A stretch of DNA of 64,000 bases. Origin: Chitinophaga caseinilytica. Its GTDB lineage: Bacteria; Bacteroidota; Bacteroidia; Chitinophagales; Chitinophagaceae. This document shows, piece after piece, positions 12,925 to 44,105 of the stretch. Below the pieces are notes generated by a model, which worked only from the letters and a program-made list of their open reading frames with translations, did no database searches and had not been told where the DNA came from. How positions within the stretch are numbered: position 1 is the stretch's first letter; the number at the start of each line of letters is the position of its first letter. Both the position numbers and the translations under genes were made by a program. Where the stretch lies: assembly GCF_038396765.1 (NCBI RefSeq), contig NZ_CP150096.1, positions 5,315,001-5,379,000 on the forward strand, written 5' to 3'.

Positions 12925-13548
12925 ATGAAAGATCAAACCCTGCCTGCCCGCGAGCAGGCCCTGAAGCTCGTTTCCCAGGCGCTACAGGCGGCTTTCCGGC
13001 CCAACCCCGACGATCCCGAGCCACCCATCGGCCCCTGGGCCTCCCTCATCCGCAGCGCATGGAAGCAATCCGTGTTCCATTCCGCCAACGGCGCGGTGTT
13101 GCGTGCCATTGCGCAGCGCCATCCGCAGGTCTGGGACCTTTGGGGCAACCCGCTCGGCCCCGTGGCACTGAACCCGCAGCCCCTTCCTCCCGGCGACATC
13201 GCGTTTTCTTTCGCGCTGGCGCAGGAAGTGATCGACCGGGCGCTGCTCCTCCGCGATATGGCGGGCGCCCTTCAGCCGAACGCGCCCGGGCATGCCGATG
13301 CCATCGCCGTGGGGCTGGTCAGGGATTTCACGAATGATTATTGCCCCGTTCCCACGAAAATCGTCATCCGCAGAAAACGCCCATTCCCCGTTCCGCCCGA
13401 TGTGGAAGCTGGCTGGAGCGCGCTGGAGATGCTGGCAGTGGGGATTTCCTTCACGCAGGCCGCCGAAAGCATCGCCGTACCAGCTTTACAGGAAGCCCTC
13501 CAGGCCGCGGGCAACCAGATCATGGACGCCGGCCTTTCCAGATTGTAA
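12925..13548 (+). CDS. Unknown protein with LNPQPLPPG motif
   Basis: A 207-residue protein with no signal peptide or membrane helix. It is mostly helical, with a central proline-rich motif VALNPQPLPPGD near residue 75-87. I have seen the LNPQPLPP string in uncharacterised bacterial proteins, but I know no function for it. A possible positively charged segment (IVIRRKRPFPVPPDV) follows. It lies 37 bases after the lipoprotein gene and 19 bases before the decapeptide-repeat gene, and so looks like the first gene of a three-gene cluster. Confidence 0.75.
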   Translation: MKDQTLPAREQALKLVSQALQAAFRPNPDDPEPPIGPWASLIRSAWKQSVFHSANGAVLRAIAQRHPQVWDLWGNPLGPVALNPQPLPPGDIAFSFALAQEVIDRALLLRDMAGALQPNAPGHADAIAVGLVRDFTNDYCPVPTKIVIRRKRPFPVPPDVEAGWSALEMLAVGISFTQAAESIAVPALQEALQAAGNQIMDAGLSRL

Positions 13549-13567
13549 ACCTCAAAAACATCACATC

Positions 13568-14854
13568 ATGGCAAATGTAATCGGCACCACCAACGCCCCC
13601 GATACCGCGGGCGTGCTGGGCAAAAGTGCAAAATCTGCCGGCGTCAAAGGCATCGCAGAAGCGCCCGGACAGCCGGGAACGGCCGGCGTAAACCCGGCAG
13701 GACCGGGCGTTTACGGAGAATCCGATATGGCTAACGGCGTAATGGGCAAAAGCCGGGAAGGCTGCGGCGTGTTCGCGGAATCGGTAAAATCTACCGGCGC
13801 TTACGCCCGCAGTTACGAAGGCTTCGGCCTTCACGGGGAATCCACCAAAAACTCGGGCGTGGTGGGCGTCAGCCGGGCATGGTTTGGCGTGTACGGCGAA
13901 TCGAAAGACGAAGAGCCCATCGAGTTCTGGAAACCTTTCGCCGAGCTGGACAAGGAACTTCACCGCGTCGGCCATCTGCTGGAAGACGTGGCCGCCACCG
14001 GCGCGGAAGCATTCGATCCCAACACCACTGCGGCTTACCGGCTGTTCCCCCTTCCTTCCCACCCCACACCGCAACAGGAAATGACCCTGCATCCACCCAA
14101 ACGCAAACGCGGCATCGGGATCGGCGTAGTCGGCAAAAGCGGTACCGGCCGCGGCGTGCTCGGCCAGAGCGACAGCAACACCGCCGTGGAAGGCAACAGC
14201 AAATCCGGCATCGGCGTGTACGGCAGCAGCGACAGCTTCGAAGGCATGCACGCCGTGACCAACTCCCTGAGAACGGCCGCCATCACAGCTTACAACGATA
14301 ACCCCTTCGGCACCGGCGCCGCCATCTACGCTAAAAAAGCCGGTAACATGGGCGTAGCAGGCTTCTTCGAAGGCGGCGTGTTCGTTACCGGCGATGTGCA
14401 TGTGCGCGGCAACATCACCGCCGACCGCGACATCTGCTGCATGGGCGCCGATTTCGCGGAAGACTTCAACATCGCCGACCCCGCCCAGGCAGAGCCCGGC
14501 ACCGTCATGGTCCTCGGCGAAGGCGATCACCTCGAAACCAGCCACGCTGCCTACGATACCCGCGTGGCCGGCGTGATTTCCGGCGCGGGGAATTACCGGC
14601 CCGGCATCATCCTCGACAAACAGTCTTCCGATCAATCCCGCAAACCCGTTGCGCTGGTCGGCAAAGTATACTGTAAAGCCGACGCACGTTATGGCCCCAT
14701 CACCAAAGGCGACCTGCTCACCACTTCCGACACGCCCGGCCACGCCATGAAAGCCGCAGACCCGATGCGTGCGTTCGGTGCCGTGATCGGCAAGGCGTTG
14801 CAGGGGCTGGGAAACGGCCAGGGACTGATACCGGTACTGGTGTCTTTACGCTAA
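13568..14854 (+). CDS. Decapeptide-repeat (GVxGxS) protein
   Basis: A 428-residue protein with two blocks of a ten-residue repeat of the form G-[VLA]-x-[GA]-x-S-x4. The first block starts at residue 47 (GVYGES, GVMGKS, GVFAES, GAYARS, GLHGES, GVVGVS, GVYGES), with two looser copies at 15-30. The second runs at about 186-225 (GVVGKS, GVLGQS, AVEGNS, GVYGSS). A helical, Pro-rich insert separates them. A C-terminal domain (VHVRGNITADRDI, VAGVISGAGNYRPG, ITKGDLLTTSDTPGHAM) resembles ends of beta-helical surface proteins. A beta-solenoid is likely. No export signal is visible. The start was chosen at the ATG just after the preceding gene. Confidence 0.82.
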   Translation: MANVIGTTNAPDTAGVLGKSAKSAGVKGIAEAPGQPGTAGVNPAGPGVYGESDMANGVMGKSREGCGVFAESVKSTGAYARSYEGFGLHGESTKNSGVVGVSRAWFGVYGESKDEEPIEFWKPFAELDKELHRVGHLLEDVAATGAEAFDPNTTAAYRLFPLPSHPTPQQEMTLHPPKRKRGIGIGVVGKSGTGRGVLGQSDSNTAVEGNSKSGIGVYGSSDSFEGMHAVTNSLRTAAITAYNDNPFGTGAAIYAKKAGNMGVAGFFEGGVFVTGDVHVRGNITADRDICCMGADFAEDFNIADPAQAEPGTVMVLGEGDHLETSHAAYDTRVAGVISGAGNYRPGIILDKQSSDQSRKPVALVGKVYCKADARYGPITKGDLLTTSDTPGHAMKAADPMRAFGAVIGKALQGLGNGQGLIPVLVSLR

Positions 14855-16329: not shown

Positions 16330-17664
16330 ATGATAATACACCTACTTACACGCCGCACACCTGAATACCTGGCCGTCATCGCCATGGCCCTGCTTTGCTG
16401 CGCCATGAGCGCCTGCCGGCGTTCCCCCGGTCCCGCCTCCCGCAAGGTCTATATTGCGCAATCCGGCGGCCGGTACACTATTTTCAGGAACGGCCAACCT
16501 TTTACCGTAAAGGGCGCGGCCGGGACAGGGCAGCTTGCCGCGCTCCGGGGCGCGGGTGGCAACACCATCCGTACCTGGGATACCCTGCACCTCGGCGTCC
16601 TGCTCGATGAAGCCGAAGCCAACGGCATCGCCGTCATCGCCGGCCTGTCGATCCCCGTCAGCAGCACTTTTGGATTTTACCGGGATACCGCCGCCGTATC
16701 CGCTCTTTACCAGGCTTATGAACGGGTCGTGGAACGCTATAAAAACCATCCGGCCCTGCTGATGTGGTGCCTCGGCAATGAAGTCGATTTCCCCTACAGG
16801 CCCCGCTTCCGCCCGTTTTACAAAGCCTATAACCGGTTGCTCGGCATGATCCATGAGCGGGACCCCGATCACCCCGTCACCACCGCGCTCATCAATTTCG
16901 ACCGGCGCAATATTTATAACCTCCGCTGGAAAGTGCCCCAGCTCGACCTCATCTCCCTGAACATATTCGGCGAACTGCCCCAACTGCGGAACGATCTGCA
17001 GCAATTCGCCTGGTTCTGGGACGGGCCATTCCTCATCACCGAATGGGGCATCAACGGGCCCTGGGAATCCGAAACCACCGCCTGGGGCGCCCCCATCGAA
17101 AACACTTCCAACAAAAAAGCGGAACAGTATTATCAGCGGTACACCGAGCACATGCCCGTGAACGATCCCCGCTTCCTCGGCGCCTGCGTGTTCTTCTGGG
17201 GGCAGAAACAGGAAGTGACGCATACCTGGTTCAGCCTCTTCTCCCGGAACGGCGAAACTTCCGCCACCGCACAGATCATGCAATATATCTGGACGGGGCA
17301 CGAACCTCCGCACAAGGCGCCCAACCTGCGGTTTATGCTGGTAGACGATAAAGGGGCGAGAGATAATATCCTGGTGGGGCCAGGCACGGCCCATTCCGCC
17401 ACATTGACCCTGGAAAGCCCCGGCCACGATTCGCTCCGGCTAACGTGGGAAGTGCTGCCGGAAGACTGGTTCATCCGTTTCCGCGGCGACGTAAATCCCC
17501 GCAAACCGCCGTCGCTGGACAGCCTACTGATTGCCCGCGAAGGCATGAAGGCTACCTTCCGCGCACCGTTGACGGAAGGGCCATACCGTATATTCGTTAC
17601 CGTACACGACGCGTACGGCAATTGCGCATCCGCCAATACACCATTTTATGTTATAGCGCCATGA
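16330..17664 (+). CDS. GH2-like TIM-barrel glycosidase lipoprotein
   Basis: A 444-residue lipoprotein with lipobox MSAC (Cys29). The catalytic domain is a TIM barrel of the GH2/clan GH-A type: acid/base Glu151 in WCLGNEVDF and nucleophile Glu238 in LITEWGINGP, at the ends of strands 4 and 7. An Ig-like C-terminal module begins near residue 335. The substrate is not clear, but its operon partner is a polysaccharide synthase, so it may trim or release that product. The stop overlaps the next start as ATGA. A start seven codons earlier (16309) is possible; I chose the one giving a compact signal peptide. Confidence 0.82.
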   Translation: MIIHLLTRRTPEYLAVIAMALLCCAMSACRRSPGPASRKVYIAQSGGRYTIFRNGQPFTVKGAAGTGQLAALRGAGGNTIRTWDTLHLGVLLDEAEANGIAVIAGLSIPVSSTFGFYRDTAAVSALYQAYERVVERYKNHPALLMWCLGNEVDFPYRPRFRPFYKAYNRLLGMIHERDPDHPVTTALINFDRRNIYNLRWKVPQLDLISLNIFGELPQLRNDLQQFAWFWDGPFLITEWGINGPWESETTAWGAPIENTSNKKAEQYYQRYTEHMPVNDPRFLGACVFFWGQKQEVTHTWFSLFSRNGETSATAQIMQYIWTGHEPPHKAPNLRFMLVDDKGARDNILVGPGTAHSATLTLESPGHDSLRLTWEVLPEDWFIRFRGDVNPRKPPSLDSLLIAREGMKATFRAPLTEGPYRIFVTVHDAYGNCASANTPFYVIAP

Positions 17665-20600
17665 AGGGAAAACTGGAACCGGTAACCCCGCCATCGAAGC
17701 GGGAAATGTTTACGCTAAGGCTCATGTTACTGCTCGGCACCGCCAGCATTGGCGTGCTGCTGATCGTACTGTTCCGGCGTACGCAGATCGGTTATGCCCC
17801 GCTTTATTGGGTGTTGATGGCCGGTATCACTTTCAATTGCCTCGCCGTTCTCCATGAATGGTACCATTATGCCGCTATCCGCGTGCCGGCGGTCCCCGAA
17901 CCGAAACATCCCTTCACGGTAGATGTGCTCACCACCTACTTCCCCGGCGAACCGTATGAAATGATCGTGGAAACCCTCACCGCCATCAGGGCCATGACGT
18001 ACCCGCATACCGCCTGGTTGTGCGACGAAGCCAATGATCCCTATCTCCGTGAAGTCTGCGACCGCCTGGGCGTGCGGCATGTGACGCGCACCGTCCGCAA
18101 AGACGCCAAGGCCGGGAATATCAACAACGCCCTGCAATACGCCACGGGAGAGCTTTGCGTGGTGCTCGACCCCGACCATGTGCCGTCTCCCGATTTCCTG
18201 GACGCCGTGGTGCATCATTTCAACGATCCCGCGATCGGGTTCGTGCAGATCGTTCAGGCGTACAGTAACCTGGGCGATAGTATCATCGCCAAAGGCGCCG
18301 CCCAGCAAACGTTCCAGTTCTACGGCCCCATCATGTCTACCATGAACAGTTACGGCACCGTGCTGGCCATCGGCGCCAACTGCACCTTCCGCAGGGCCGC
18401 GCTGGATTCCATCGGCGGGCATGCCGCGGGGCTGGCGGAAGATATGCATACCGCCATGCACCTGCACGCCAAAGGCTGGAAATCCGTTTATGTGCCCATC
18501 GTGCTGACACGCGGGCTCGTTCCCAATACCTTGTCTGCCTACTATTCGCAACAGCTGAAGTGGGCGCGGGGCACCTTCGAACTGCTGGTCACCTCCTACC
18601 CGAAACTGTTCCGGCAGTTCACCTGGCTGCAAAGAATCCATTACGGCACCATTCCGCTGCATTACCTGGCCGGGGTCGTATTTCTCATTAATTTCCTCGT
18701 GCCGGTAATTGCGCTGGTGACGGGGCATATCCCTTTCCGGGCAGACCTGGTGGAGTTTTCGTTGTTCGCTTTCCCGGCGATCGCTTCCATCCTCCTCATC
18801 CGCCATTACGTGCAGCGATGGGTGATGGAAGAGAAGGAACGGGGATTCCATATCGTGGGCGGATTGCTCTTTATCGGCACCTGGTGGATCTATCTGCTGG
18901 GGCTCGTCTATACCATCGCGCGGAAAAAAGTGCCTTACCTTCCCACCCCGAAAGACGATTCCGGGCCAGACGACTGGCGGCTGAACATCCCCAATATCGC
19001 CATCCTCGTCATATCGCTCGCGGCCATCGTTTACGGGCTGAATTATGACTGGAACCCCTATTCCCTGTTTATGGCGGGCATTGCAGGCGTCAATTGCCTG
19101 ATCATGATATTCAACATCATCGCCAGCCTCCCCCTGCGGAAAATCCCCGCAAAGTACGGCTGGGTAAAAACGATGCTGATCGTGCCGCTGCTGCTGAAAA
19201 GGCAATTCTGGGTATTCCGGCACCTGCACCTGTATTCCGGCATCCGCAAGCTCGGGTTGCCGTTATTGCTGGCCGCGATCGGCCTGAGCTGGTATTTTAC
19301 GTCCGGATATAGGCATGCGCCGGAAGTGCGCCTCCTTCCCCGGCACGATGTTTTTTATACCGGCGTGTACAATCCAGCGGGCCAGGGCATGCCGCGCATG
19401 CAGATTACATCGCTTTACATTGCGTGGGGCAACGGGCCGGAACATCTCCTGCCCGATTCACTGGCGGCCGTTTACAATGGCGGCTCCATACCCATGATCA
19501 CCTGGGAGCCCTGGCGGTCGAAGTTCGGGTTGAGCATCGATGGCTTGAAGGACGAACAGAAAATCATGTCCCTCATCCCCACCGGTATTTTCGACAGTTA
19601 CCTGGAACGGTTCGCCGACCAGGTAAAAGCGCTGGACCGCCCGCTGTTCCTCCGGTTTGCGCATGAGCCAGACAATCCCGACTATCCATGGTCGCCCTCG
19701 GGCGGCAATACGCCGGAAGAATTCCGTACGGCATGGCGCTATGTACATACCCTGTTCCTGCGCCGCGGGGCGGTGAACGCCATTTGGGTGTGGAACCCCT
19801 GGAAAGCGGCCCATGCGGCCTCTTATTTCCCGGGAAGGGCCTATGTAGACTGGTTAGGCGTTACCGTGCTGAATTATGGGCCGGAGCATGGCGGAAAGGG
19901 ATGGAATACTTTCGAATCGTTGTACCAGCCGTTCGACAGCCTGCCGCTTTTCCGTTCCGGCCTGCCCGTGATGATCGCTGAAATGGGCTCCATACCCGAC
20001 GCCGGCAACCAGGAAGGCTGGTTCCGCGATGCGTTCCAGGCCATCAGTACGCGTTTCCCCAACATCCACGCACAGGTGTTTTTCAATACGGCCCACGACA
20101 CGAATGTGCCCCATGGCGATACGGCGAAGTTCCTGGACTGGACCATCCGCCAGCCCGGCCAGCTGATGGCGGCGCTGCATGGATCGCCCCGGCTGTCGGC
20201 GCCCCTGGCGCAGATCCCGCCGATCGTTACGCCCGCATCGGAGGCCGATCTTCCGGCACGCTACAAATTGCCGGAAGATATCCGGGGGCTTATTTACCAG
20301 AAAGGAGACAGTTGGTTCAGGAACCGGTACGCCCTCACGCGCCGCGAAGCCGCGCGGGATATGCAGCAGATGCAGCAACTGGGTGTAAATACCATCCGCC
20401 GGTACGGACCGGGCGTGTACGACAGGAATGTGCTCGCGGAAGCCGCCAGCCATGGCATCCGCATCCATTACGGGTTCTGGCTGCCCAACGTCAACGATAT
20501 GGACAAGGATAGCGCGGCGCTCGCGCGGATGAGGGAAAGCATCCTTAAAGCGATCGTCCGCCGCCGCAACGATACTGCCATCACCGCATGGCACCTGGGC

Positions 20601-21395
20601 AACAACGCCTGGCAGCGCCTGGCCACGCAGCATTACAAACCGGCATTGCTCTACCAGCAGCAACGGTACCTCCGCTGGATGGAGCAACTGGCCGCGGCCA
20701 TCAAAGCTGCCGATCCGTCGCGGCCGGTTACGACAGACGTACTTTTTAACCCGGGCACTGCGCCCGAACTGGCCTGGCTCCGGCAGCAGCTACCCGCCAT
20801 AGATGCGTTTGGCCTGGAAGCCACCGGCGACACCATGGGCCTCAGCGCCCAGTTGGCCGGAAACGTTCCCTGCTTCATCAGCAAAATCCCAGTTGCCGCC
20901 TACGCCAAGCTCCCGCCGGCACCGGCGTTCCTCACTACGCTGCAAGACCAGGAAACGCGCGACTTCGTATCTTTCGACGGCCTCACCGATCATAACGGAC
21001 GCAAAAAACCCGACTGGCACCTGGTGGCAAAGCTTTGGAAACAGGCCCCCGCTCCACCACCATTGCCGGGCGTAAAAATACTCCGGCCTTCGCGTACCGT
21101 ATTGCCCGGCACCCAGCTCACTTACAACGTGCTGTTAAGCGCCGGCGCCGGCTGGCGGCTGCCCGAACCCGGAAAAGACAAGTTGCGGTACGAGTGGTAC
21201 CTCGTGCAAACAGACCATTACGGCTATCCGTTCCAACTGCAACGCGTCGGAGAAGGCCCGTTCCTCAAGCTTACGATCCCCAGTGAGCCCATGCAGTACC
21301 GGCTTTACCTGGTAGCTACGCGGAACGGCAGTGTGACAACGGATTACAGTCCGCTGCATACCCCGCTTTTCCTGCAAAATATGCACCCGCGATAA
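17661..21395 (+). CDS. Fusion: membrane GT2 synthase + GH26-like + inactive GH2-like domains
   Basis: A 1244-residue protein. Residues 20-66 hold two membrane helices. Residues 85-310 are a processive GT2 domain of the cellulose/PNAG-synthase type: VLDPDH (170-173), LAEDMH (258-263) and QQLKWARGT (297-305), the counterpart of QxxRW. Six or seven further helices follow to about 548. Residues ~560-830 resemble GH26: acid/base Glu669 in RFAHEPD and nucleophile Glu774 in VMIAEMG. Residues ~870-1125 resemble the GH2-like barrel of the preceding gene, but its acid/base position is Asn (HLGNNAW, 979-984) and no nucleophile Glu is seen. An Ig-like end follows. Product and glycan are unknown. The start overlaps the previous stop. 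Confidence 0.85.
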   Translation: MKGKLEPVTPPSKREMFTLRLMLLLGTASIGVLLIVLFRRTQIGYAPLYWVLMAGITFNCLAVLHEWYHYAAIRVPAVPEPKHPFTVDVLTTYFPGEPYEMIVETLTAIRAMTYPHTAWLCDEANDPYLREVCDRLGVRHVTRTVRKDAKAGNINNALQYATGELCVVLDPDHVPSPDFLDAVVHHFNDPAIGFVQIVQAYSNLGDSIIAKGAAQQTFQFYGPIMSTMNSYGTVLAIGANCTFRRAALDSIGGHAAGLAEDMHTAMHLHAKGWKSVYVPIVLTRGLVPNTLSAYYSQQLKWARGTFELLVTSYPKLFRQFTWLQRIHYGTIPLHYLAGVVFLINFLVPVIALVTGHIPFRADLVEFSLFAFPAIASILLIRHYVQRWVMEEKERGFHIVGGLLFIGTWWIYLLGLVYTIARKKVPYLPTPKDDSGPDDWRLNIPNIAILVISLAAIVYGLNYDWNPYSLFMAGIAGVNCLIMIFNIIASLPLRKIPAKYGWVKTMLIVPLLLKRQFWVFRHLHLYSGIRKLGLPLLLAAIGLSWYFTSGYRHAPEVRLLPRHDVFYTGVYNPAGQGMPRMQITSLYIAWGNGPEHLLPDSLAAVYNGGSIPMITWEPWRSKFGLSIDGLKDEQKIMSLIPTGIFDSYLERFADQVKALDRPLFLRFAHEPDNPDYPWSPSGGNTPEEFRTAWRYVHTLFLRRGAVNAIWVWNPWKAAHAASYFPGRAYVDWLGVTVLNYGPEHGGKGWNTFESLYQPFDSLPLFRSGLPVMIAEMGSIPDAGNQEGWFRDAFQAISTRFPNIHAQVFFNTAHDTNVPHGDTAKFLDWTIRQPGQLMAALHGSPRLSAPLAQIPPIVTPASEADLPARYKLPEDIRGLIYQKGDSWFRNRYALTRREAARDMQQMQQLGVNTIRRYGPGVYDRNVLAEAASHGIRIHYGFWLPNVNDMDKDSAALARMRESILKAIVRRRNDTAITAWHLGNNAWQRLATQHYKPALLYQQQRYLRWMEQLAAAIKAADPSRPVTTDVLFNPGTAPELAWLRQQLPAIDAFGLEATGDTMGLSAQLAGNVPCFISKIPVAAYAKLPPAPAFLTTLQDQETRDFVSFDGLTDHNGRKKPDWHLVAKLWKQAPAPPPLPGVKILRPSRTVLPGTQLTYNVLLSAGAGWRLPEPGKDKLRYEWYLVQTDHYGYPFQLQRVGEGPFLKLTIPSEPMQYRLYLVATRNGSVTTDYSPLHTPLFLQNMHPR

Positions 21396-25167: not shown

Positions 25168-27534
25168 ATGAAGGTAAAAATCCGCATTAGTTTGGTTGTG
25201 CTATGTTCCTTCCTGTTATTTTCCTGCTCCCGTAAGATTTCAACAGGTAGACAAAAGCATCCGAATGCAAACCGGGAAATACTATCTCAGTATGTAGATC
25301 CCAGGATAGGCACCGCACATGCCCGCTGGTTTCACTTCACACCGGGAGCCATGCCTTTTGGGATGGCGAAGCCAGCCCCTTCCACCAACGGGCACCTCGG
25401 CAATAAAAGCGGATGGGAAGCTACGGGATACGATTACAGAGACAAAACAATTGAAGGCTTCCCCTGCCTGCATGAGTTCCAGATTGGGGGGATTGTCCTG
25501 ATGCCCAGCACCGGTAAACTCAAAACCATTCCCGGCCCCGTTAATGATACTACAGGCATCGGTTACCGCTCGCGGTTCGACCGTTCGGATGAAATAGCCA
25601 CAGCAGGCTATTATTCCGTACTCCTGAAAGATTACCATATAAAAGCAGAGCTCACCGCAACACCCCGTGTGGCTTTTCAGCGTTACAGCTACCCTGCTGG
25701 TGCAACAAATCACATGCTATTCGACATCGGCCATCAGCAGGGAGAAAGCGGACGTGTGAAAGACGCCTATGTAACGAAGACGAGCGATGGCCGGATAGAG
25801 GGATGGGTGATCACCGAGCCGGAATATGTAAAAAAATACCAGCCAGGCGCTACCGTTACGCTCTATTTCTCTGCCGTATCAGATCACACTCCTGCTTCAT
25901 GGGGTACCTTTACCGGTAACGATGTACATGCAGGCAAAACCGAGGTATCGGGTGTGGGGGCGGGTATGTACCTGACTTTTGCATCCAACGCCCCTGAAAC
26001 CATTACCGTTAAAGTGGGCCTCTCCTACACTTCAGTAGCCAATGCCCGCCTGAACCTGCAGGAGGAAGCAGCCAATCTTACTTTTGATCAGGCGAAAGCA
26101 AATGCCGGTAAAGTATGGGAAGATTATTTGGACAGGATTCGTGTGGAAACTTCAAATAAAGCAGATAAGATAAAATTCTATACTGGCCTATACCATGCTT
26201 TGCTGGGAAGAGGGCTCGCCAACGACATTAATGGTGCATACCCGCGCAATGATGGCACAATTGGCCAAATTCCCCTGCACAACAACAAACCCGTTCATAA
26301 CATCTACAATACGGACGCGGCATGGGGTGTTCAATGGAACCTTTCACAGCTATGGATGCTGGTGTATCCGGAATACCAATCAGACTACCTGAGCAGCCAT
26401 TTACAAACATATAAAGATGCCGGATGGCTGGCCGATGGACTTGCCAATGGCCGCTATGTTTCCGGAGTTGGCACTAACCTGCTCACCACATTATTTGCAG
26501 GCGCGTACCAATGCGGCATCCGGGATTTTGATACAAAAACGGCATATGAAGCATCCCTTAAAAATGAGCTGGATGGACAAAACCGCCCTTTAGGTGCTGG
26601 CAAAATGAATACCGCAGCCTTCACGAAATACGGATATGTTCCCGCTGACGCAGATACAGATGGCTTCTCTGCTTCGCATACGCTGGAATACTCCTATAGC
26701 GCCTGGGCAGTAGCACAATGGGCAAAGCAGCTCAACAAAACCAACGATTACAACCGGCTCATGTACCTTTCCAAAGGCTGGGAAAGGCTCTACGATTCCT
26801 CAACAAACTTTATCCGTCCGCGGAAAGTAAATGGTGAATTCATTGAAAACTTCAATCCGCTGCAGGTATGGCGCGGGTTCCAGGAAGGGAATGCCTGGCA
26901 GTATACTTTCTATGTACCGCACGATGTAAAAGGCCTGGCGGAAAAATTAAGTCCACCGGTTTTTAGCCGCCGGCTCGACAGTATCTTTGCCATAGCGCAG
27001 AAGCTGATATTCGGTGGTGGCAAACAGATAGATGCCTTTGCCGGGCTTGAAACGCTCTATAATCATGGCAACCAGCCCTGCCTGCATATTTCCTGGTTAT
27101 TTAATGAAATAGGATATGCTTCCTTAACCCAGAAATGGGTGCGCGCCATCCTCAATGATTTTTATGGTACAGAAGGCATTCATGGATATGGCTATGGGCA
27201 AGACGAAGATCAGGGTCAACTGGGCGCCTGGTATGTTATCAGCTCCATTGGCCTTTTTGATGTGAAAGGCCTGACCGATACTGCGCCTGCTTTTGGAATA
27301 GGGAGCCCGCTGTTCGACAAGGTTACCATTAAACTGAATAACCGCTACTACAAGGGCCGGGAATTTGTTATTGAAACGAAGGACAATAGCAATACAAATG
27401 CATACATACAGCAATTAAGACTGAATGGCAAGCCATTGCATGATACGCATATTCCGTTCAAGACTGTTGTGAATGGAGGCAGGCTAACGCTTGACATGGG
27501 CAGTGAGGCAAGAGACAATTATCTAAACCGGTAA
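25168..27534 (+). CDS. GH92 family alpha-mannosidase lipoprotein
   Basis: A 788-residue lipoprotein with lipobox LFSC (Cys20). It starts with the GH92 signature region YVDPRIGT, FTPGAMPFGMAKPAPST and HEFQIGG, and ends with the family blocks YGYGQDEDQGQLGAWYVISSIG split over 27186-27250 and FVIETKDNSN. GH92 enzymes are calcium-dependent exo-acting alpha-mannosidases, often alpha-1,2, that invert configuration. Surface or periplasmic trimming of N-glycan-like mannans is inferred. No SusC/D pair adjoins it, so it would act on material imported or released by other systems. Two TACTTTTA boxes at 25107 and 25133 are near-matches to a -7 element. Confidence 0.93.
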   Translation: MKVKIRISLVVLCSFLLFSCSRKISTGRQKHPNANREILSQYVDPRIGTAHARWFHFTPGAMPFGMAKPAPSTNGHLGNKSGWEATGYDYRDKTIEGFPCLHEFQIGGIVLMPSTGKLKTIPGPVNDTTGIGYRSRFDRSDEIATAGYYSVLLKDYHIKAELTATPRVAFQRYSYPAGATNHMLFDIGHQQGESGRVKDAYVTKTSDGRIEGWVITEPEYVKKYQPGATVTLYFSAVSDHTPASWGTFTGNDVHAGKTEVSGVGAGMYLTFASNAPETITVKVGLSYTSVANARLNLQEEAANLTFDQAKANAGKVWEDYLDRIRVETSNKADKIKFYTGLYHALLGRGLANDINGAYPRNDGTIGQIPLHNNKPVHNIYNTDAAWGVQWNLSQLWMLVYPEYQSDYLSSHLQTYKDAGWLADGLANGRYVSGVGTNLLTTLFAGAYQCGIRDFDTKTAYEASLKNELDGQNRPLGAGKMNTAAFTKYGYVPADADTDGFSASHTLEYSYSAWAVAQWAKQLNKTNDYNRLMYLSKGWERLYDSSTNFIRPRKVNGEFIENFNPLQVWRGFQEGNAWQYTFYVPHDVKGLAEKLSPPVFSRRLDSIFAIAQKLIFGGGKQIDAFAGLETLYNHGNQPCLHISWLFNEIGYASLTQKWVRAILNDFYGTEGIHGYGYGQDEDQGQLGAWYVISSIGLFDVKGLTDTAPAFGIGSPLFDKVTIKLNNRYYKGREFVIETKDNSNTNAYIQQLRLNGKPLHDTHIPFKTVVNGGRLTLDMGSEARDNYLNR

Positions 27535-37752: not shown

Positions 37753-39513
37753 TTACCAGCCTGGATTGGGCGTCAGTTTCGGGTTGAGGGTGATTTCGTT
37801 GAGGGGGATGCACTCCAGGTAATCCCGGTTTTCCTTGAAGCCGTAGCCGTTGGGAATGGCGGTGGCGTAGGGATCGAGGAAGCCGTCGGCGTCCGTTTTA
37901 TAGTTGATCGTTCTGCCCGTCCATTCGTTTTTGTCGAACGGATACCCCTGCGGCCGTTTCCCTTTCAGCAGCTTATGCGCCGCCCAGCGGCGGATATCGT
38001 CGTACCGGAAGCCCTCGGCCCCCAGCTCCACCGTGCGCTCGCGGCGGATCTCATGCAGCTCGTCAGACAGTGCGTACCCGTAATCCGCGTACCTGGCGCG
38101 GTTGGCATCGCCCTGCACCTTGAACGCCGGCATTCCCGCCCTTGCCCGCAACAAATTAATGGATTTATCGTAGTCTACGGACTCGTTCAGTTCCGCCTTC
38201 GCTTCCGCATAGTTCAGCAAAGCTTCCGCATACCGGAACACGATGGCGCCGGTTTCGCAGCTGGTATTCCAGGAAACGCCGCTGCCGGCCTGCGGATCTT
38301 TCGGATCGTTCCCTTTCCTGATCTGGAAACCGGTGTTGTTCAGCGTTTCGCCGGATTTATCGAGGAAGGGCGCGGTGAATACACCTTTGCCGAACCCGTT
38401 GTCCCACATCACGCCGCCAGGCACCCACACTGTTTGCGACAGGCGCGGATCGCACTCCTGCCCTATTTTCGTGAGGAAAGCATTCCCTTTCACCGTTTTG
38501 CCGGTATTGAAATAATCATACGCGTTGCCGCTCCGGTCGAGGTAATTGTACACCTGCTGCATCGTCATGGAAATGCCTGCCGTCCGGTCGGAGACGTAAA
38601 TCTGGAACGAATGTGAAAGTTGCAGGTTGACGGAATACGCCTTCCAGAGGATCACTTCCCGGCTGGCCGCCTGGTTCACGAGCGAAAACAGCATGCGGTA
38701 GTCGTTATCTGTATCGCCGGTGGAATACAGCGCGCGGTTGTAAACGGGTTTCATCAGTTCTTCCGCGGCGGCCACGGCTGCGCGGAGGTATTTGTCCGGA
38801 TCCGCGCCGGCGGTACCAAACGGCGTGCCTTTATGGTATTTCTGCCAGGTACCCTCGTACAAGGCCACCCTGGATTTGAACAGGAGCGCCGCTTCCTTGG
38901 ACAGCCGGTTGTTGCCGCCATCCACTTCCTTGAGCGGTTTGAGGAATTCCGCGGCTTTGTCCAGGTGCCACAAAATGGAATCCACCACCTGGGTCCGCGG
39001 ATCGCGGGGCTTGAAGAGGCCGGGGTCGTCCATTTCCAGCGGACCGGTATACCAGGGTACGTCCCCATAGGCTTTCACCTTATCGAAATACAACCAGGCT
39101 TTGAAGAAATGCGCTTCGCCGACGAACTGCTGGTATTTCGGGAAAGGGTCTTTGCATTTGCCGTAATTCTTGAAGAAAACGTTCACGCTCCTGATTTTGG
39201 CCCAGCTCCAGTTGCCGGTGGCGGTTACGGGTTGATTGGTGCCATTCCACAACGTGGAGGGCGATGCAGCGATCTGCACGTCGGAACCGCGGGTGCCGTC
39301 CCAGCCGATGAGCCCGAGGTAACTGCCAACGGTGCCGAAGGATGGGAATTCCGGGTAAAACTGGAGGGTATATTTTTCCAGGTCGCTCGCCGTCTGCCAA
39401 TATGCTTCGTTATCGATCTGGGTGAGCGGCGGCCTGTCCAGGAAGTTTTTATTGCAGGAAAATGCGGTGAGCAGGATGCTGAAAGCGGTTATATGGATCA
39501 GGTATTTTTTCAT
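37753..39513 (-). CDS. SusD/RagB-type outer-membrane lipoprotein
   Basis: A 586-residue SusD-like protein with lipobox TAFSC (Cys20) followed by the family start NKNFLDRPPLTQIDNEAYW. It contains the TPR-like body (QFVGEAHFFKAWLYFDKVKAYGDVPWY in parts) and the C-terminal SusD region (RYAEALLNYAEAKAEL, LHEIRRERTVELGAEGFRYDDIRRW in parts). SusD proteins form the lid over the SusC channel and bind the ligand. It lies 42 bases after the SusC gene. The ligand is unknown; no glycosidase is in the operon, so the cargo may not be a polysaccharide. Confidence 0.95.
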   Translation of the reverse strand: MKKYLIHITAFSILLTAFSCNKNFLDRPPLTQIDNEAYWQTASDLEKYTLQFYPEFPSFGTVGSYLGLIGWDGTRGSDVQIAASPSTLWNGTNQPVTATGNWSWAKIRSVNVFFKNYGKCKDPFPKYQQFVGEAHFFKAWLYFDKVKAYGDVPWYTGPLEMDDPGLFKPRDPRTQVVDSILWHLDKAAEFLKPLKEVDGGNNRLSKEAALLFKSRVALYEGTWQKYHKGTPFGTAGADPDKYLRAAVAAAEELMKPVYNRALYSTGDTDNDYRMLFSLVNQAASREVILWKAYSVNLQLSHSFQIYVSDRTAGISMTMQQVYNYLDRSGNAYDYFNTGKTVKGNAFLTKIGQECDPRLSQTVWVPGGVMWDNGFGKGVFTAPFLDKSGETLNNTGFQIRKGNDPKDPQAGSGVSWNTSCETGAIVFRYAEALLNYAEAKAELNESVDYDKSINLLRARAGMPAFKVQGDANRARYADYGYALSDELHEIRRERTVELGAEGFRYDDIRRWAAHKLLKGKRPQGYPFDKNEWTGRTINYKTDADGFLDPYATAIPNGYGFKENRDYLECIPLNEITLNPKLTPNPGW

Positions 39514-39555
39514 TGTCGATGTTTGAATGGTCTGTAATTGCTTTCGGTGTACCGG

Positions 39556-42500
39556 TTAAAACGAAACGTTCAGCCCGAACGCCCATATCGCCTGCGTGAA
39601 CATGCTTTTACCCGCGCCGAACTCGCCGAGCGAAGCGGTTTCGGGATCAAACCCTACCGGCAGGCCGGTGATCGTCCAGATATTTTCGCCGGAGAAAAAC
39701 GCCCTTACCCTTTTCAGGTGGAGGGTTTTGAGCACCGATGCCGGCAGCGTATATCCCAGCTGGGCGTTTTTCAGCCTGGCATAGGCGCCGTTCTGGAGGT
39801 AACGCGTTTGCACCTGCTGGTTCTTCGCGTATTGGGTGGCATTGCTGTACGGCCGCGGGAACCAGGATTCCGTGTTCACGCCCAGGCCGGAATAGGCGGA
39901 GGCTTCAGCGTCACGGTAGTAATCCATGTGATGGGGGAACAGGCTCGATTGGTTCCATTGGTTGAAGCCCCAGAAAATATTCCCGCTCAGCCAAAGGTCG
40001 CGCTTACCGGTACCCTGGAAAAACACCCCCACATCGAAGTTCCTGTAGTTCGCCGTCAGGTTCAGGCCAAACTGGTACCTGCTGGTGGTATTGCCGATCA
40101 CGCGGAGATCGCCATGGTCGTTCACGGTGTTTTTCCCGTTGTTGATGACATGGTCGCCGTTCAGGTCGCGGTACTCCACATCGCCCGTGCGCCAAACCTG
40201 CCCGTTGATGAAAGCCTGCGATTTGGCGGTGTTGATGGCATCTGCCCGCTCCTGCGTCTGGATGAGCCCCATCGTTTCATATCCCCAGATCTCCCCTACC
40301 CGCTTGCCGGGGTAATCGGTCGTGAGAATGCCCGTGGGATTGGGATATTGGGTCACCACGTTGAAATAGTCGAACACGTTCGCCGATACGGAGAAATTGA
40401 AATCCGACCCTATTGTCCCTTTGTAAGTGATGGCCGCGTCCCAACCCTGCGTTTTCAATTCGGAATTGTTTTCCTGCGGAACGGCGGCCCCCAGCACCAG
40501 GGGCAATGCTTTCGAAGGCCCGAGGCGGTCGAAGGTCAGGCGTTGATAATATTCGAATTCGATTTGCAGCTTATTGTCCAGCAGTCCGAATTCCATGCCC
40601 AGGTTGGTGGTGCGCGACGATTCCCAGGTCAGGTACTGGTTCACGAGGTTCGGCGATCCTGTGTAAGCGGGCCGCTTGCCGTTGAGGATCCATCCCAGGT
40701 TGGTGTTCACGCCGATGAGGGCAAGGTCCTGATAGGCGGAAACGCCCTGGTTCCCCAGCATCCCCCACGAAGCTTTCAGCTTCAGGTAAGGGACGTAATC
40801 GGCCACCGGCTCCCAGAATTTTTCGCGGGACACGTTCCAGCCCGCGGAAAGGGACGGGAAGAACCCCCATCGCTTGCCCTCCGCGAATTTCGAAGTGCCG
40901 TCGTACCTAACATTCGACTCCAGCAGGTAACGGTCTTTGTAATTATAGTTGAACCGCGCGAAATACCCTTTGGTAGCCCAGTGCGACAAATCATCCGCCG
41001 CCTGCATATCCCCCGTTGCCGTGGTGATGGAAGGCACTTCCGACGTAATGAGCTCGCGCTTGAGGCCGCTGAGGAAATCGTAGTTATTGGATTCCTGCTG
41101 GTATCCCAGCATCACTTCGATATGATGATGCAGGCCGATGGTTGGCTTGTAGGACGAAAACAGGTTCAGCGCCTTATATGTCTTGTTGGCTTTGTTTTTC
41201 GAGATGGACGACGGTACCGTCAGCGAAATGGGCACCAGCGTTCCGTCTACCTGGTCTTCGTACGCCACGAGGTTCAGTCCATCGTAGTTGTTCACCGTAT
41301 AATCGATGGAATAATCCGCATTGATGCTCCAGTTTTTCAGCGGCCTGATCTCGGTGGCGATGCGCTGCAGCAGGTTGTTGTCCGTGAATTTCTCGTACCC
41401 GGCGCGCATTTGCGGCACCCGTGACAGTTGGGAATAATACCCGTTGGGGGATTTCAGGAACACTTCGGGATGCGTCCTGAATATCTGGTGGATGATCATG
41501 CCATATCCACCTTCACCGTTGTAAATGGGCCGGTCGCGCACTTCGTTGGTGATGCGGGTGTTGGAACTGATTTTCCACCAGTTGTTGATATTGGCGTCCA
41601 GTTTGGCGTTCAGGTTATAGCGATGGTATTTGTCGTCCACCATTTGCAACGGCCCCTTTTCCGACGCATGGCCGGCGGAAAGGAAGTAGGCGATCTCTTT
41701 GGAGCCGCCGCGCAGGGAAAGGTTTTCCTGCGTGCGGTTGCCGGAGCCGTAATGGATATCGATCCAGTCGTTGTTGCCGTTGGATAGCTGGTAGGCCGAC
41801 CATTTCGAAGGATTCGTGGCGTCGGGTACCGTTTCGGGCAGACTGGGGTCTTTGATCCGGGCGATGATGCGATCGATGGTGGATTCGGCGAAAAGGCGCG
41901 CCACGCCCTGGTTGTCGTGCATTTCGTTGATGGCGCGTACGAACGTGTACGAATCCACCATTTTCGGTTTCCGGATGATGGACGTGGGGCCGCCGTTCAC
42001 GGAGAAATCCACCTGGGGCTTCTGGTTCATTTTACCGGATTTGGTAGTGATGAGCAGCACGCCGTAAGGTGCGCGGGCACCGTAGATCGCGGCCGCAGCC
42101 GCATCCTTGAGTACCGAGATATTTTCGATGGTATTGGGATCGAGGGTGTTGATATCGCCTGCGGTACCGTCGATCAGCACATAAGGCGCGCCCTGGCCGC
42201 GGATCTGCACGGAAGGGGCCGCGCCCGGCTCGGCACCGCGGTTGCCGTAGGCGATGGTTACGCCCGGAACGGTGCCGTACAATGCCTGCGATACGTTGCT
42301 GACCGGGCGGTTCTGCAGCTTCGCGCCGTCTACCACCACTACCGAACCGGTGAGGTTTACTTTTTTCTGAGTGCCATATCCCACTACCACCACTTCACTC
42401 AAACTGGAATTTTTCGAATCCGACAATTTGACCATGATGGAGTTATTGTCGGCTTCCTTTACCAGCTGGTTTTTCAGGGTTTGCGGCTCAAAACCGATAT

Positions 42501-42765
42501 GGGTAAAGGTGAAGGAGTAGCGGCTGTTGGCATTGAGCCGGGTGAAAACGAAAATACCGTTCTCGTCCGTTACCGTGATGAATTGTTGCGTGGTATCCTG
42601 ATCGTTGCGGACCCTGACGTTCACACCGGGAATGGGGCTGGATTGTTCGTCGAGCACAGCCCCGGTAACTTTCGGTTGCTGCTGTGCCTGCACAAGCAGC
42701 GGGATAAAGAGTAGCAATAGCATCCCCGCTCCGCAAAAGCGGTGAATCTTTTTAATGATTTTCAT
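39556..42765 (-). CDS. SusC/RagA-type TonB-dependent transporter
   Basis: A 1069-residue outer-membrane transporter. A signal peptide ends near VQAQQQ. A carboxypeptidase-D regulatory-like domain follows (VTGAVLDEQSSPIPGVNV, to ~residue 110). Then come the TonB-box-like VVVGYGTQKK, the plug with NRPVSNVSQALYGTVPGV and VQIRGQGAPYVLIDGTAGD, and a long beta-barrel ending in an aromatic residue (FGLNVSF). There is no STN domain between the signal peptide and the regulatory domain, which is unusual for a transporter paired with a FecR/sigma unit. The cargo is unknown. Confidence 0.95.
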   Translation of the reverse strand: MKIIKKIHRFCGAGMLLLLFIPLLVQAQQQPKVTGAVLDEQSSPIPGVNVRVRNDQDTTQQFITVTDENGIFVFTRLNANSRYSFTFTHIGFEPQTLKNQLVKEADNNSIMVKLSDSKNSSLSEVVVVGYGTQKKVNLTGSVVVVDGAKLQNRPVSNVSQALYGTVPGVTIAYGNRGAEPGAAPSVQIRGQGAPYVLIDGTAGDINTLDPNTIENISVLKDAAAAAIYGARAPYGVLLITTKSGKMNQKPQVDFSVNGGPTSIIRKPKMVDSYTFVRAINEMHDNQGVARLFAESTIDRIIARIKDPSLPETVPDATNPSKWSAYQLSNGNNDWIDIHYGSGNRTQENLSLRGGSKEIAYFLSAGHASEKGPLQMVDDKYHRYNLNAKLDANINNWWKISSNTRITNEVRDRPIYNGEGGYGMIIHQIFRTHPEVFLKSPNGYYSQLSRVPQMRAGYEKFTDNNLLQRIATEIRPLKNWSINADYSIDYTVNNYDGLNLVAYEDQVDGTLVPISLTVPSSISKNKANKTYKALNLFSSYKPTIGLHHHIEVMLGYQQESNNYDFLSGLKRELITSEVPSITTATGDMQAADDLSHWATKGYFARFNYNYKDRYLLESNVRYDGTSKFAEGKRWGFFPSLSAGWNVSREKFWEPVADYVPYLKLKASWGMLGNQGVSAYQDLALIGVNTNLGWILNGKRPAYTGSPNLVNQYLTWESSRTTNLGMEFGLLDNKLQIEFEYYQRLTFDRLGPSKALPLVLGAAVPQENNSELKTQGWDAAITYKGTIGSDFNFSVSANVFDYFNVVTQYPNPTGILTTDYPGKRVGEIWGYETMGLIQTQERADAINTAKSQAFINGQVWRTGDVEYRDLNGDHVINNGKNTVNDHGDLRVIGNTTSRYQFGLNLTANYRNFDVGVFFQGTGKRDLWLSGNIFWGFNQWNQSSLFPHHMDYYRDAEASAYSGLGVNTESWFPRPYSNATQYAKNQQVQTRYLQNGAYARLKNAQLGYTLPASVLKTLHLKRVRAFFSGENIWTITGLPVGFDPETASLGEFGAGKSMFTQAIWAFGLNVSF

Positions 42766-42821
42766 GTAGCGTGATTTTAAAAAATTATTCTTTGAACTGC
42801 TGGTTGATATGTAATGGTGTT

Positions 42822-44105
42822 CTACTTTATGCTCATGATCCTGAATCCTGTGCTGTCTTTGATCACCTGCAACTGGTTCATCCTGCAGATAACGGCCAGC
42901 ATTTTGGCGGCATCGTCTTCCGGTGAAATAGTGCCCGTGAAATATTTATGCGCAATGTCTTCCCTGTTGTACCGGATCTTCACATGGAACATCATTTCCA
43001 TTTCGCTGAAAAGTGCTTCCAGCGAGGTGCCGGAGTATTGTATCTCCCCGGGCCCGGCCGCAGGCTTGCCTCCGGCAGTCTGTGCCGCTTTCACGATACG
43101 GATGCCGCCATTCGCATTTTCCACCGCCAAACCGTTGACGGCCGTAAAGATGTGCAGGATGGCAGACAGGGAATCGCTGACGCTGAACCGGCCGGTGAAA
43201 TACATGCGCTCCATCTCGCTGGTGTTGTAGATAATGCGCTGGTGGAAGAGGCCGCCGAGGATGTCGAACGCATCGTTGAGCGGCACGTTGTCGAACGTCA
43301 GCATGCTCGCTTTGCCCGCGGCCATGGCGCCCTGTGCCACTGCTTTGCCGGTATTGTCCGTTCTCACGGGCGCGATGGCGATGCCGTCGATCTGAAGGTT
43401 GACGAAGCACTGCTCGCCCGGTAAAAGGACAGCTGGTAAAACCTGGGCGTTCTTGCTGAGGTATTTGACCATCACCTTGCCTTCGTACAGCTGCACGTTG
43501 ACGTTTTTCTGGGAATGGTCTACCAGGAACCGCGTTCCCAGCGCCGTGGTGGCGATGTTCCCCGAATACACGGTAAACGGGTGCCCGGGATCGGTGGCCA
43601 CGTCGAAAATGGCTTTGCCGGACAGCAGGTGCACCGTCCTGTTCTGCGTAAAGTCTGCGCTGTATCGCAGGGTGGTGTTCGGGTACAGGGTCACGGAGGA
43701 GCCATCGGGCAACCGGAACGTGCTGGCGGTTCCTGAATGGTTCTGCGCTACCAGCGAAGCGGCGTTTGCCGGAACGTGGGCGGTATAGGGGGCCGACGGG
43801 AAGTAGTTCCCGAAATATGCGCCCGCCGTAACCAGCAGCAAAATGCTGGCGGCGATGGCGACCGCCGTGTACAGCTTCCGGTAGACCGTCCGCTTCCGCG
43901 TAGCGGCTTCCACAGGCTGCCAGATCTCCTGTTTCAGGGCCATATCGCCGGCCGAAGCAGCGGCGCCAGGCTGCTCCCACTCCTCCTGCGGCAGGAACGT
44001 GTGCAGCAGATCGGGGTCAGACGCGAGGTATTCCTCCACGATGGCGGCTTCTTCCCGATTGCATTCATTATTGAGAAATTTCCTGATCAGTTCCTGTTTG
44101 TCCAT
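42822..44105 (-). CDS. FecR-family anti-sigma factor with tandem DUF4974-like domains
   Basis: A 427-residue protein. Residues 1-50 form the cytoplasmic anti-sigma segment, 78-98 a single membrane helix, and about 120-215 the FecR domain (STFRLPDGSSVTLYPNT, TTALGTRFLVD). Two copies of a 70-residue DUF4974/STN-like domain follow, at 269-338 and 355-424. They align without gaps and share Y-N, YFTG and G-x-R-I. Most relatives have one copy. The N-terminus should bind the ECF sigma factor, and the periplasmic end should contact the TonB-dependent transporter. It lies between the sigma and SusC genes. Confidence 0.92.
   Translation of the reverse strand: MDKQELIRKFLNNECNREEAAIVEEYLASDPDLLHTFLPQEEWEQPGAAASAGDMALKQEIWQPVEAATRKRTVYRKLYTAVAIAASILLLVTAGAYFGNYFPSAPYTAHVPANAASLVAQNHSGTASTFRLPDGSSVTLYPNTTLRYSADFTQNRTVHLLSGKAIFDVATDPGHPFTVYSGNIATTALGTRFLVDHSQKNVNVQLYEGKVMVKYLSKNAQVLPAVLLPGEQCFVNLQIDGIAIAPVRTDNTGKAVAQGAMAAGKASMLTFDNVPLNDAFDILGGLFHQRIIYNTSEMERMYFTGRFSVSDSLSAILHIFTAVNGLAVENANGGIRIVKAAQTAGGKPAAGPGEIQYSGTSLEALFSEMEMMFHVKIRYNREDIAHKYFTGTISPEDDAAKMLAVICRMNQLQVIKDSTGFRIMSIK

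Follow-up and report, generated by a model that had tools for sequence, protein, structure and literature searches.

Among the described systems that resemble the locus considered here are the pseudomonad BcsA-like 'Orphan'/NdvB proteins, for which the accessible part of the published account describes one membrane chain comprising a BcsA-like family 2 glycosyltransferase (GT2) and a periplasmic TIM-barrel glycosidase of family GH17, with a β-glucan as the proposed product (PMC10237404). Because of this GH17 fusion, a synthase joined to a glycosidase is already a known kind of protein. The mixed-linkage glucan synthases BgsA, RiGT2 and CslF6 are likewise GT2 β-glucan synthases; as described in the accessible text of PMC10374906, RiGT2 carries a PilZ domain and BgsA a C-terminus that binds cyclic dimeric guanosine monophosphate, no glycosidase domain is mentioned, and bacterial mixed-linkage glucan has been reported from few organisms. 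A 64,000-nucleotide stretch of the Chitinophaga caseinilytica genome (contig NZ_CP150096.1, positions 5,315,001 to 5,379,000; hereafter, the window) encodes a system that may yield the same product from other parts: a 1244-residue chain in which a GT2 synthase is followed by a GH26 domain and a GH158 barrel with an immunoglobulin (Ig)-like domain, and, from an overlapping upstream gene, a free GH158-like protein (Table 1). Whereas the pseudomonad glycosidase belongs to GH17, here GH26 and an apparently inactive GH158 both stand after the GT2, and a free GH158 gene is added.

The two-gene cassette is, on sequence grounds, larger than first described, with two GH158 copies, one of them decayed and the other apparently live. 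We regard the chances as about even that it makes and trims a β-1,3-containing glucan, most likely a mixed-linkage β-1,3/1,4-glucan; three modules converge on a glucan: the synthase with its kinship to BcsA, the GH26 that stands near a lichenase, and the free partner from GH158, a family of endo-β-1,3-glucanases. The GT2-GH26-GH158 domain set, together with the dead/live GH158 pair, appears to be new: in the literature searched, no title or abstract concerned such a protein, and since most subscription papers lie outside that literature, absence is unproven.

Table 1. Features of the cassette, with positions in the window
Feature	Position	Strand	Basis or conservation
Partner gene, intact, GH158-like; lipoprotein-type start at ATG 16330 (alternative TTG 16249)	16330..17664	+	
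Partner acid/base Glu151 (LGNE)	16780..16782	+	E in 77/78 rows, the remaining row cut before it
Partner nucleophile Glu238 (ITEWG)	17041..17043	+	E in 78/78 rows
Fusion gene, GT2 synthase-GH26-probably inactive GH158 barrel-Ig-like domain, 1244 aa	17661..21395	+	
GT2 catalytic domain, residues ~80-320 (D122, DPD 170-172, ED 260-261, QQLKW 297-301)	17898..18620	+	
Membrane helices, residues 322-354, 363-387, 439-462, 466-489 and, last, 500-550	18624..19310	+	Predicted model mb2a16fe14ab4, predicted local distance difference test (pLDDT) 90.8; hydropathy, charge
GH26 domain, lichenase-like, residues ~565-830	19353..20150	+	Pfam; sequence and fold comparison
GH26 acid/base Glu669 (AHE)	19665..19667	+	Glu in 121/121 and 81/81 rows
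GH26 nucleophile Glu774 (IAEMGS)	19980..19982	+	Glu in 121/121 and 81/81 rows
GH158-like TIM barrel, catalytic residues lost, residues ~866-1130	20256..21050	+	Sequence, fold
Asn982, at the position of the free GH158 acid/base Glu	20604..20606	+	
Lys1075, at the position of the free GH158 nucleophile Glu	20883..20885	+	
Ig-like domain at the C-terminus, part of the GH158 module	21051..21380	+	Strands at 1138-1231 (model residues 583-676)

The fusion is real and conserved. The initial annotation had read one frame of 1244 residues with the order GT2, GH26, barrel, and the frame, the order and the residues it named were all recovered. The mechanical open reading frame begins at GTG 17445; ATG 17661 is preferred as the start because it has ATGA (17661-17664) in common with the end of the preceding gene and because the closest homologues, among the matches listed, are 1235-1247 residues long. 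A Pfam scan of the chain returned GT2 families down to 1e-23, Glyco_hydro_26 over its cut-off at 7e-8 (32.6 bits, cut-off 20.2) and Glyco_hydro_2_C narrowly over at 4.6e-5 (23.1 bits, cut-off 21). The genome, a single contig of 6.5 Mb, carries a second copy of the fusion with 52% identity and no stops; near-full-length matches occur in 15 of 35 genomes of the same genus, and named records yielded 79 fusion loci (of 177 relatives the best 80 were taken, some sharing one genome). An assembly error joining two genes, which had been raised as a possible explanation, is thus ruled out. Seven of the 15 same-genus match rows have one stop codon inside the matched stretch, alongside open frames of at least 1254 aa. 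Among the matches listed, the closest named protein is from Chitinophaga sp. (95% identity); that of Chitinophaga rhizosphaerae (locus L095) is 94% identical. Conservation was read from the best 120 of 1641 matches plus the window (121 rows) and from a second set of 81 rows that includes the window.

The synthase part had been taken for a membrane GT2 enzyme, a view borne out by sequence and by fold: it is closest to BcsA (181 bits, as against 40 bits for CslF6) and has the BcsA-type fold with a membrane channel, the D,D,D residues (each conserved in 80 or 81 of the 81 rows, one of which is cut) and a gating-loop-like YLPTPK. It differs from BcsA in reading QQLKW for QxxRW, the acceptor motif given for GT2 synthases in the accessible literature, in its extra last membrane helix, in its two glycosidase modules and in lacking PilZ, for which no Pfam match was obtained anywhere along the chain; nor was a GH17 domain among the Pfam matches. 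Kinship with BcsA would suit a cellulose-like β-1,4-glucan, with GH26 in place of the BcsZ cellulase. The NCBIfam CelA score (174.4 bits) is, however, far below its cut-off of 699.1, which rules out BcsA proper, and this score, the missing PilZ and a GH158 partner, which would make little sense for cellulose, render such a product very improbable. A poly-N-acetylglucosamine (PNAG) synthase is ruled out by the PgaC_IcaA score (68.9 bits, cut-off 422.3). Because the GT2 motifs were compared with a few reference synthases that include no identified BgsA or curdlan synthase, the product linkage cannot be read from them.

The model of the fusion has seven membrane helices in total, two of which (residues 13-37 and 46-70) precede the GT domain, and an interface helix at residues 398-419. 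The share of Lys and Arg is 22.6% at the N-terminus, the pattern of a cytoplasmic N-terminus, and 15-18% in the loops assigned inside (385-398, 422-445 and 490-528), compared with 4-7% in the short loops assigned outside and 10% in residues 549-580, the first stretch of the outside-assigned part. On the basis of the helix model and this charge pattern, the GH26 and GH158 modules are predicted, rather than mapped, to lie on the periplasmic or exit side, in agreement with the placement originally proposed for the hydrolase.

The GH26 assignment and its two catalytic candidates, Glu669 and Glu774, likewise held: the domain exceeds the Pfam cut-off, both residues are Glu in all 121 rows, and the His of the HE motif, present in the window, is kept in 119 of 121 and 78 of 81 rows. 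Its nearest relative in both sequence and fold is the GH26 lichenase CtLic26A (Endoglucanase H), with which it has MITWEPW, HE and YPW in common. CtLic26A is cellulosomal and has no synthase attached, whereas the window domain is tethered to one. Against reference chains, the window domain scored 154 bits to the lichenase, about 30 bits or less to chains named mannanase, 44 and 43 bits to two chains named only GH26, and 32-42 bits to xylanases; β-1,3-xylanases occur in the family. Sequence and fold thus place it closer to the mixed-linkage lichenase than to mannanases, and a mannanase by kinship is ruled out. The row set for this family numbered 143, with the window counted twice and copies below 60 bits, including altered ones from genome G129, left out. 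The module is the probable chain-cutting domain. Since the only GH26 matches in the genome at E<=0.001, and likewise the only free GH158-like genes, are those of the cassettes, a role in synthesis is favored over one in feeding.

Mannan and PNAG had been suggested as substrates; both are less likely than a β-1,3-containing glucan in light of the GH158 partner, the lichenase-like GH26 and the NCBIfam scores. A related proposal, in which GH26 would be the matching hydrolase of a mannan or of a pentose-containing polymer, can draw on the GH26 tree, the two large branches of which contain the characterized mannanases (PMC6556568, accessible text), and on Sinorhizobium meliloti pSymB, where a locus (L179:172-5659) holds a pair of epimerase genes and a GT2, with a GH26 two genes further downstream. 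The gene order of that locus agrees in part with that of the APS operon, which serves a polysaccharide containing arabinose; the assignment, made from this partial order, is unproved. The GT2 and GH26 are separate genes there, and the ApsS-type GT2, with the motif QEFQW, is not close to that of the window (23% identity). This low GT2 identity, the GH26 scores and the GH158 partner make a mannan or pentose polymer improbable. A Bacteroidota gene pair (L050:7104-9789, genome G036) includes a GT2 50% identical to that of S. meliloti, both reading QEFQW; judging by these sequences, the two loci represent a second, unrelated GT2 and GH26 pairing.

The third module had been called a GH2-like barrel. 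By sequence and by fold it is instead GH158, with GH2 enzymes ranking lower on both counts, and GH158 structures align across its barrel and Ig-like part. Because Asn982 and Lys1075 replace the catalytic Glu residues, the window's fused GH158 is probably dead, so the activity implied for every module is not supported for it. In a first set, the acid/base position lacked Glu in 136 of 136 domains and the nucleophile position was Glu in 16; among the 81 rows, 7 have the acid/base Glu and 19 the nucleophile Glu, with 6 and 4 gaps at these positions, respectively, and the alignment at 982 and 1075 is unsure in gapped flavobacterial rows. Fold alignment covered 67 of the 81 rows (A1; the window and 66 others, <85% identity, excluding seven loci that were partial, broken or variant) and, in A2, 58 of those 67. 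Both Glu residues are present in six loci: L144 (Pontibacter), L157 (Rhodocytophaga), L158 (a Cytophagales metagenome-assembled genome), L161 (Catalimonadaceae), L163 (Pararhodonellum; a GH158 sequence match at 3.9e-22) and L171 (Cesiribacter). In L162, the acid/base Glu is present and the sequence ends before the nucleophile.

A quick tree, whose root was not inferred, was built from 53 fused modules and 50 partners; it took fused modules below 70% identity together with forced-in acid/base-Glu modules, without L120, L128, L145, L150, L167, L170 and L172. A branch with a Shimodaira-Hasegawa-like approximate likelihood ratio of 100 separates the partners from the fused modules, and a second branch, also at 100, has the 46 modules without the acid/base Glu (42 called dead, four with Asp and the nucleophile Glu) on one side. 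The seven modules with this Glu fall outside the 46-module side, and their own grouping is unsupported (49). A single origin of the fused copy and a single loss of the acid/base would be the simplest reading of these sequences.

Such loss raises the alternative that the chief task of both fused glycosidase modules is to hold or steer the emerging chain, with cleavage left to the free partner. The fused GH158 acid/base is not Glu in any domain of the first set or in 74 of the 81 rows (6 of the 74 being gaps), and two genomes with an altered fused GH26-like part, G306 and G129, keep the free GH158. The GH26 catalytic pair is, however, retained in every row of the 121 and of the 81, which would be unexpected for a mere binding module. 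We consider this alternative rather unlikely.

The partner matches GH158 over nearly its full length (PDB 9oro, 8.2e-70; 6pal, BuGH158, 4.4e-58), resembles BuGH158 and GH158(Pro) in its barrel-plus-Ig build and keeps the catalytic N, E and E. With the catalytic residues of BuGH158 as given in the accessible text of PMC7157763, all three were found in 31 of 31 free partner rows of the first set, which contain one gene twice (L061, L090); among the 78 rows of the second set, the Asn is present in 77, the remaining one being cut at that point. BuGH158 itself belongs to a glucan-utilization locus, whereas here one copy stands beside a synthase gene and another is fused and apparently inactive. A crude lipobox pattern occurs in 38 of 77 partners, so the partner may or may not be anchored. 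Distances among partners and among fused modules correlate (r 0.86, 50 pairs; 0 of 2000 permutations as high), which is no evidence of interaction because common descent alone would give it. The initial annotation had proposed that synthesis and cleavage sit in one chain instead of being divided with a separate partner. The fusion stands, but the adjoining free GH158 was missed; as this gene is intact, adjacent and conserved, the system has a free hydrolase partner besides the fused one.

A search for the same architecture in other Bacteroidota, as had been recommended, recovered the 79 named-record loci, and Balneolota have the two-gene cassette too; the window's genome has it twice. A GH158 gene adjoins in 76 of the 79 loci (it precedes the fusion on the same strand in 70, lies on the opposite strand in 5 and is downstream in 1), and in the own second copy and same-genus loci L002-L017 it adjoins a complete fusion in 16 of 16. 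Two loci without a partner, L162 and L172, are cut by a contig end. A second GH26 gene lies nearby in 11 of 79 loci. Across 20 larger loci and the window (four with split or shortened forms), only the cassette is common to all; with genes compared by similarity and short frames, taken to be antisense frames of the cassette, set aside, the next shared cluster occurs in 6 of 21.

The lack of a recurring third gene, for instance one for an exporter, would also suit a pure β-1,3-glucan, linear or cyclized in the periplasm, with GH26 and GH158 as transglycosylases. The partner's family is β-1,3-specific, and the mechanism has a precedent in the one proposed for the pseudomonad GH17-GT2 fusion (PMC10237404, accessible text). 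The fused GH26, however, is nearest to an enzyme that acts on mixed-linkage glucan. GH26 enzymes are not known to act on pure β-1,3-glucan. A pure β-1,3-glucan is possible yet doubtful.

For a mixed-linkage product, we propose that the GT2 would polymerize glucose from uridine diphosphate glucose, the presumed donor, in the cytoplasm and thread the chain through its own channel, as BcsA does. The extra last membrane helix would set GH26 at the periplasmic face, where it could cut, release or re-join the emerging chain; the fused GH158 barrel and Ig-like domain, with catalysis lost in the window, would probably bind or steer it, and the free partner would carry out β-1,3-specific trimming or transfer. 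The donor, the product linkage, the bond cut by GH26, the coupling of synthesis to cleavage and the destination of the product are what we infer. A fuller version, which we hold tentatively and with more doubt than confidence, is that of a previously undescribed mixed-linkage β-glucan system of Bacteroidota and Balneolota: a built-in lichenase-type GH26 would set chain length at the exit, a decayed GH158 guide would feed the polymer and a free active GH158 would finish it, and the intact fused copies (Pontibacter, Rhodocytophaga, Cesiribacter and others) would record the step before decay.

Several observations weigh against a mixed-linkage product made in this way. Mixed-linkage glucan is a poor substrate for BuGH158 and BfGH158 (PMC7157763, accessible text), a finding that favors plain β-1,3-glucan for the partner. 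The synthase has K for the R of QxxRW in 81 of 81 and 121 of 121 rows. The S. meliloti pairing means that a GH26 beside a GT2 does not by itself name the polymer. Locus L158 has full flanks yet no partner in the available sequence. Finally, cutting at the exit is not universal, since the fused GH26 motifs are altered in G306, whose GT2 chain has a GH26 part over the Pfam cut-off with HE replaced by PE and the nucleophile by Arg, and in G129, which has two GT2 chains whose GH26-like part shows neither a Pfam match nor the motifs.

Variants of the cassette are of several kinds. Three GT2 chains (L089:5349-7985, L090:6173-8725 and L091:5066-7567) have a fused GH26-like part without catalytic motifs beside a free GH158, and their sequences indicate decay of the other fused module. 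In G271 and G318, a GH158 and a GT2-GH158 come with a GH26-like gene that stands apart downstream (weak, and without a Pfam match); in G048, the chain consists of GT2 and Ig alone, and the partner is present. G036, G037 and G251 have GT2 and GH26 as neighboring genes, with no GH158 match in the stretch examined. Both copies in G035 (C1:3962582-3966339 and 5937808-5941517) are broken at different places, by sequencing error or decay. Chitinophaga japonensis (L106:1-10029) carries tandem cassettes in the order partner-fusion-partner-fusion, the first partner being cut by the locus end.

Elsewhere in the window, a GH92-type gene lies downstream (25168-27534), and a similar gene, from the shared cluster, is found near the second cassette (L032:3253-5397). 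A frame at 13292-14854 encodes a protein with many GVxGxS-type repeats and no Pfam match; its mechanical start, which runs into the frame before it, probably lies too far upstream. SusD-like, TonB-dependent receptor and FecR genes stand in a row at 37753-44105, as in glycan-uptake loci.

Database names of the fusion homologues, among the matches listed, are either unspecific or refer to cellulose, poly-GlcNAc or mannan, and producers carrying the cassette are therefore probably misannotated. Within the genus of the window the cassette is common, as noted above, but it is scattered across the phylum, with all modules in one frame in 6 of 295 other sampled genomes. As a synthase and an intact hydrolase share one chain, the setting of chain length and the release of the product become testable by point mutation. 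The fused GH158, in turn, offers a natural series of intact, partly changed and lost catalytic residues beside a free copy that keeps them, and with it a clear example of how an enzyme may become what is likely a binding module.

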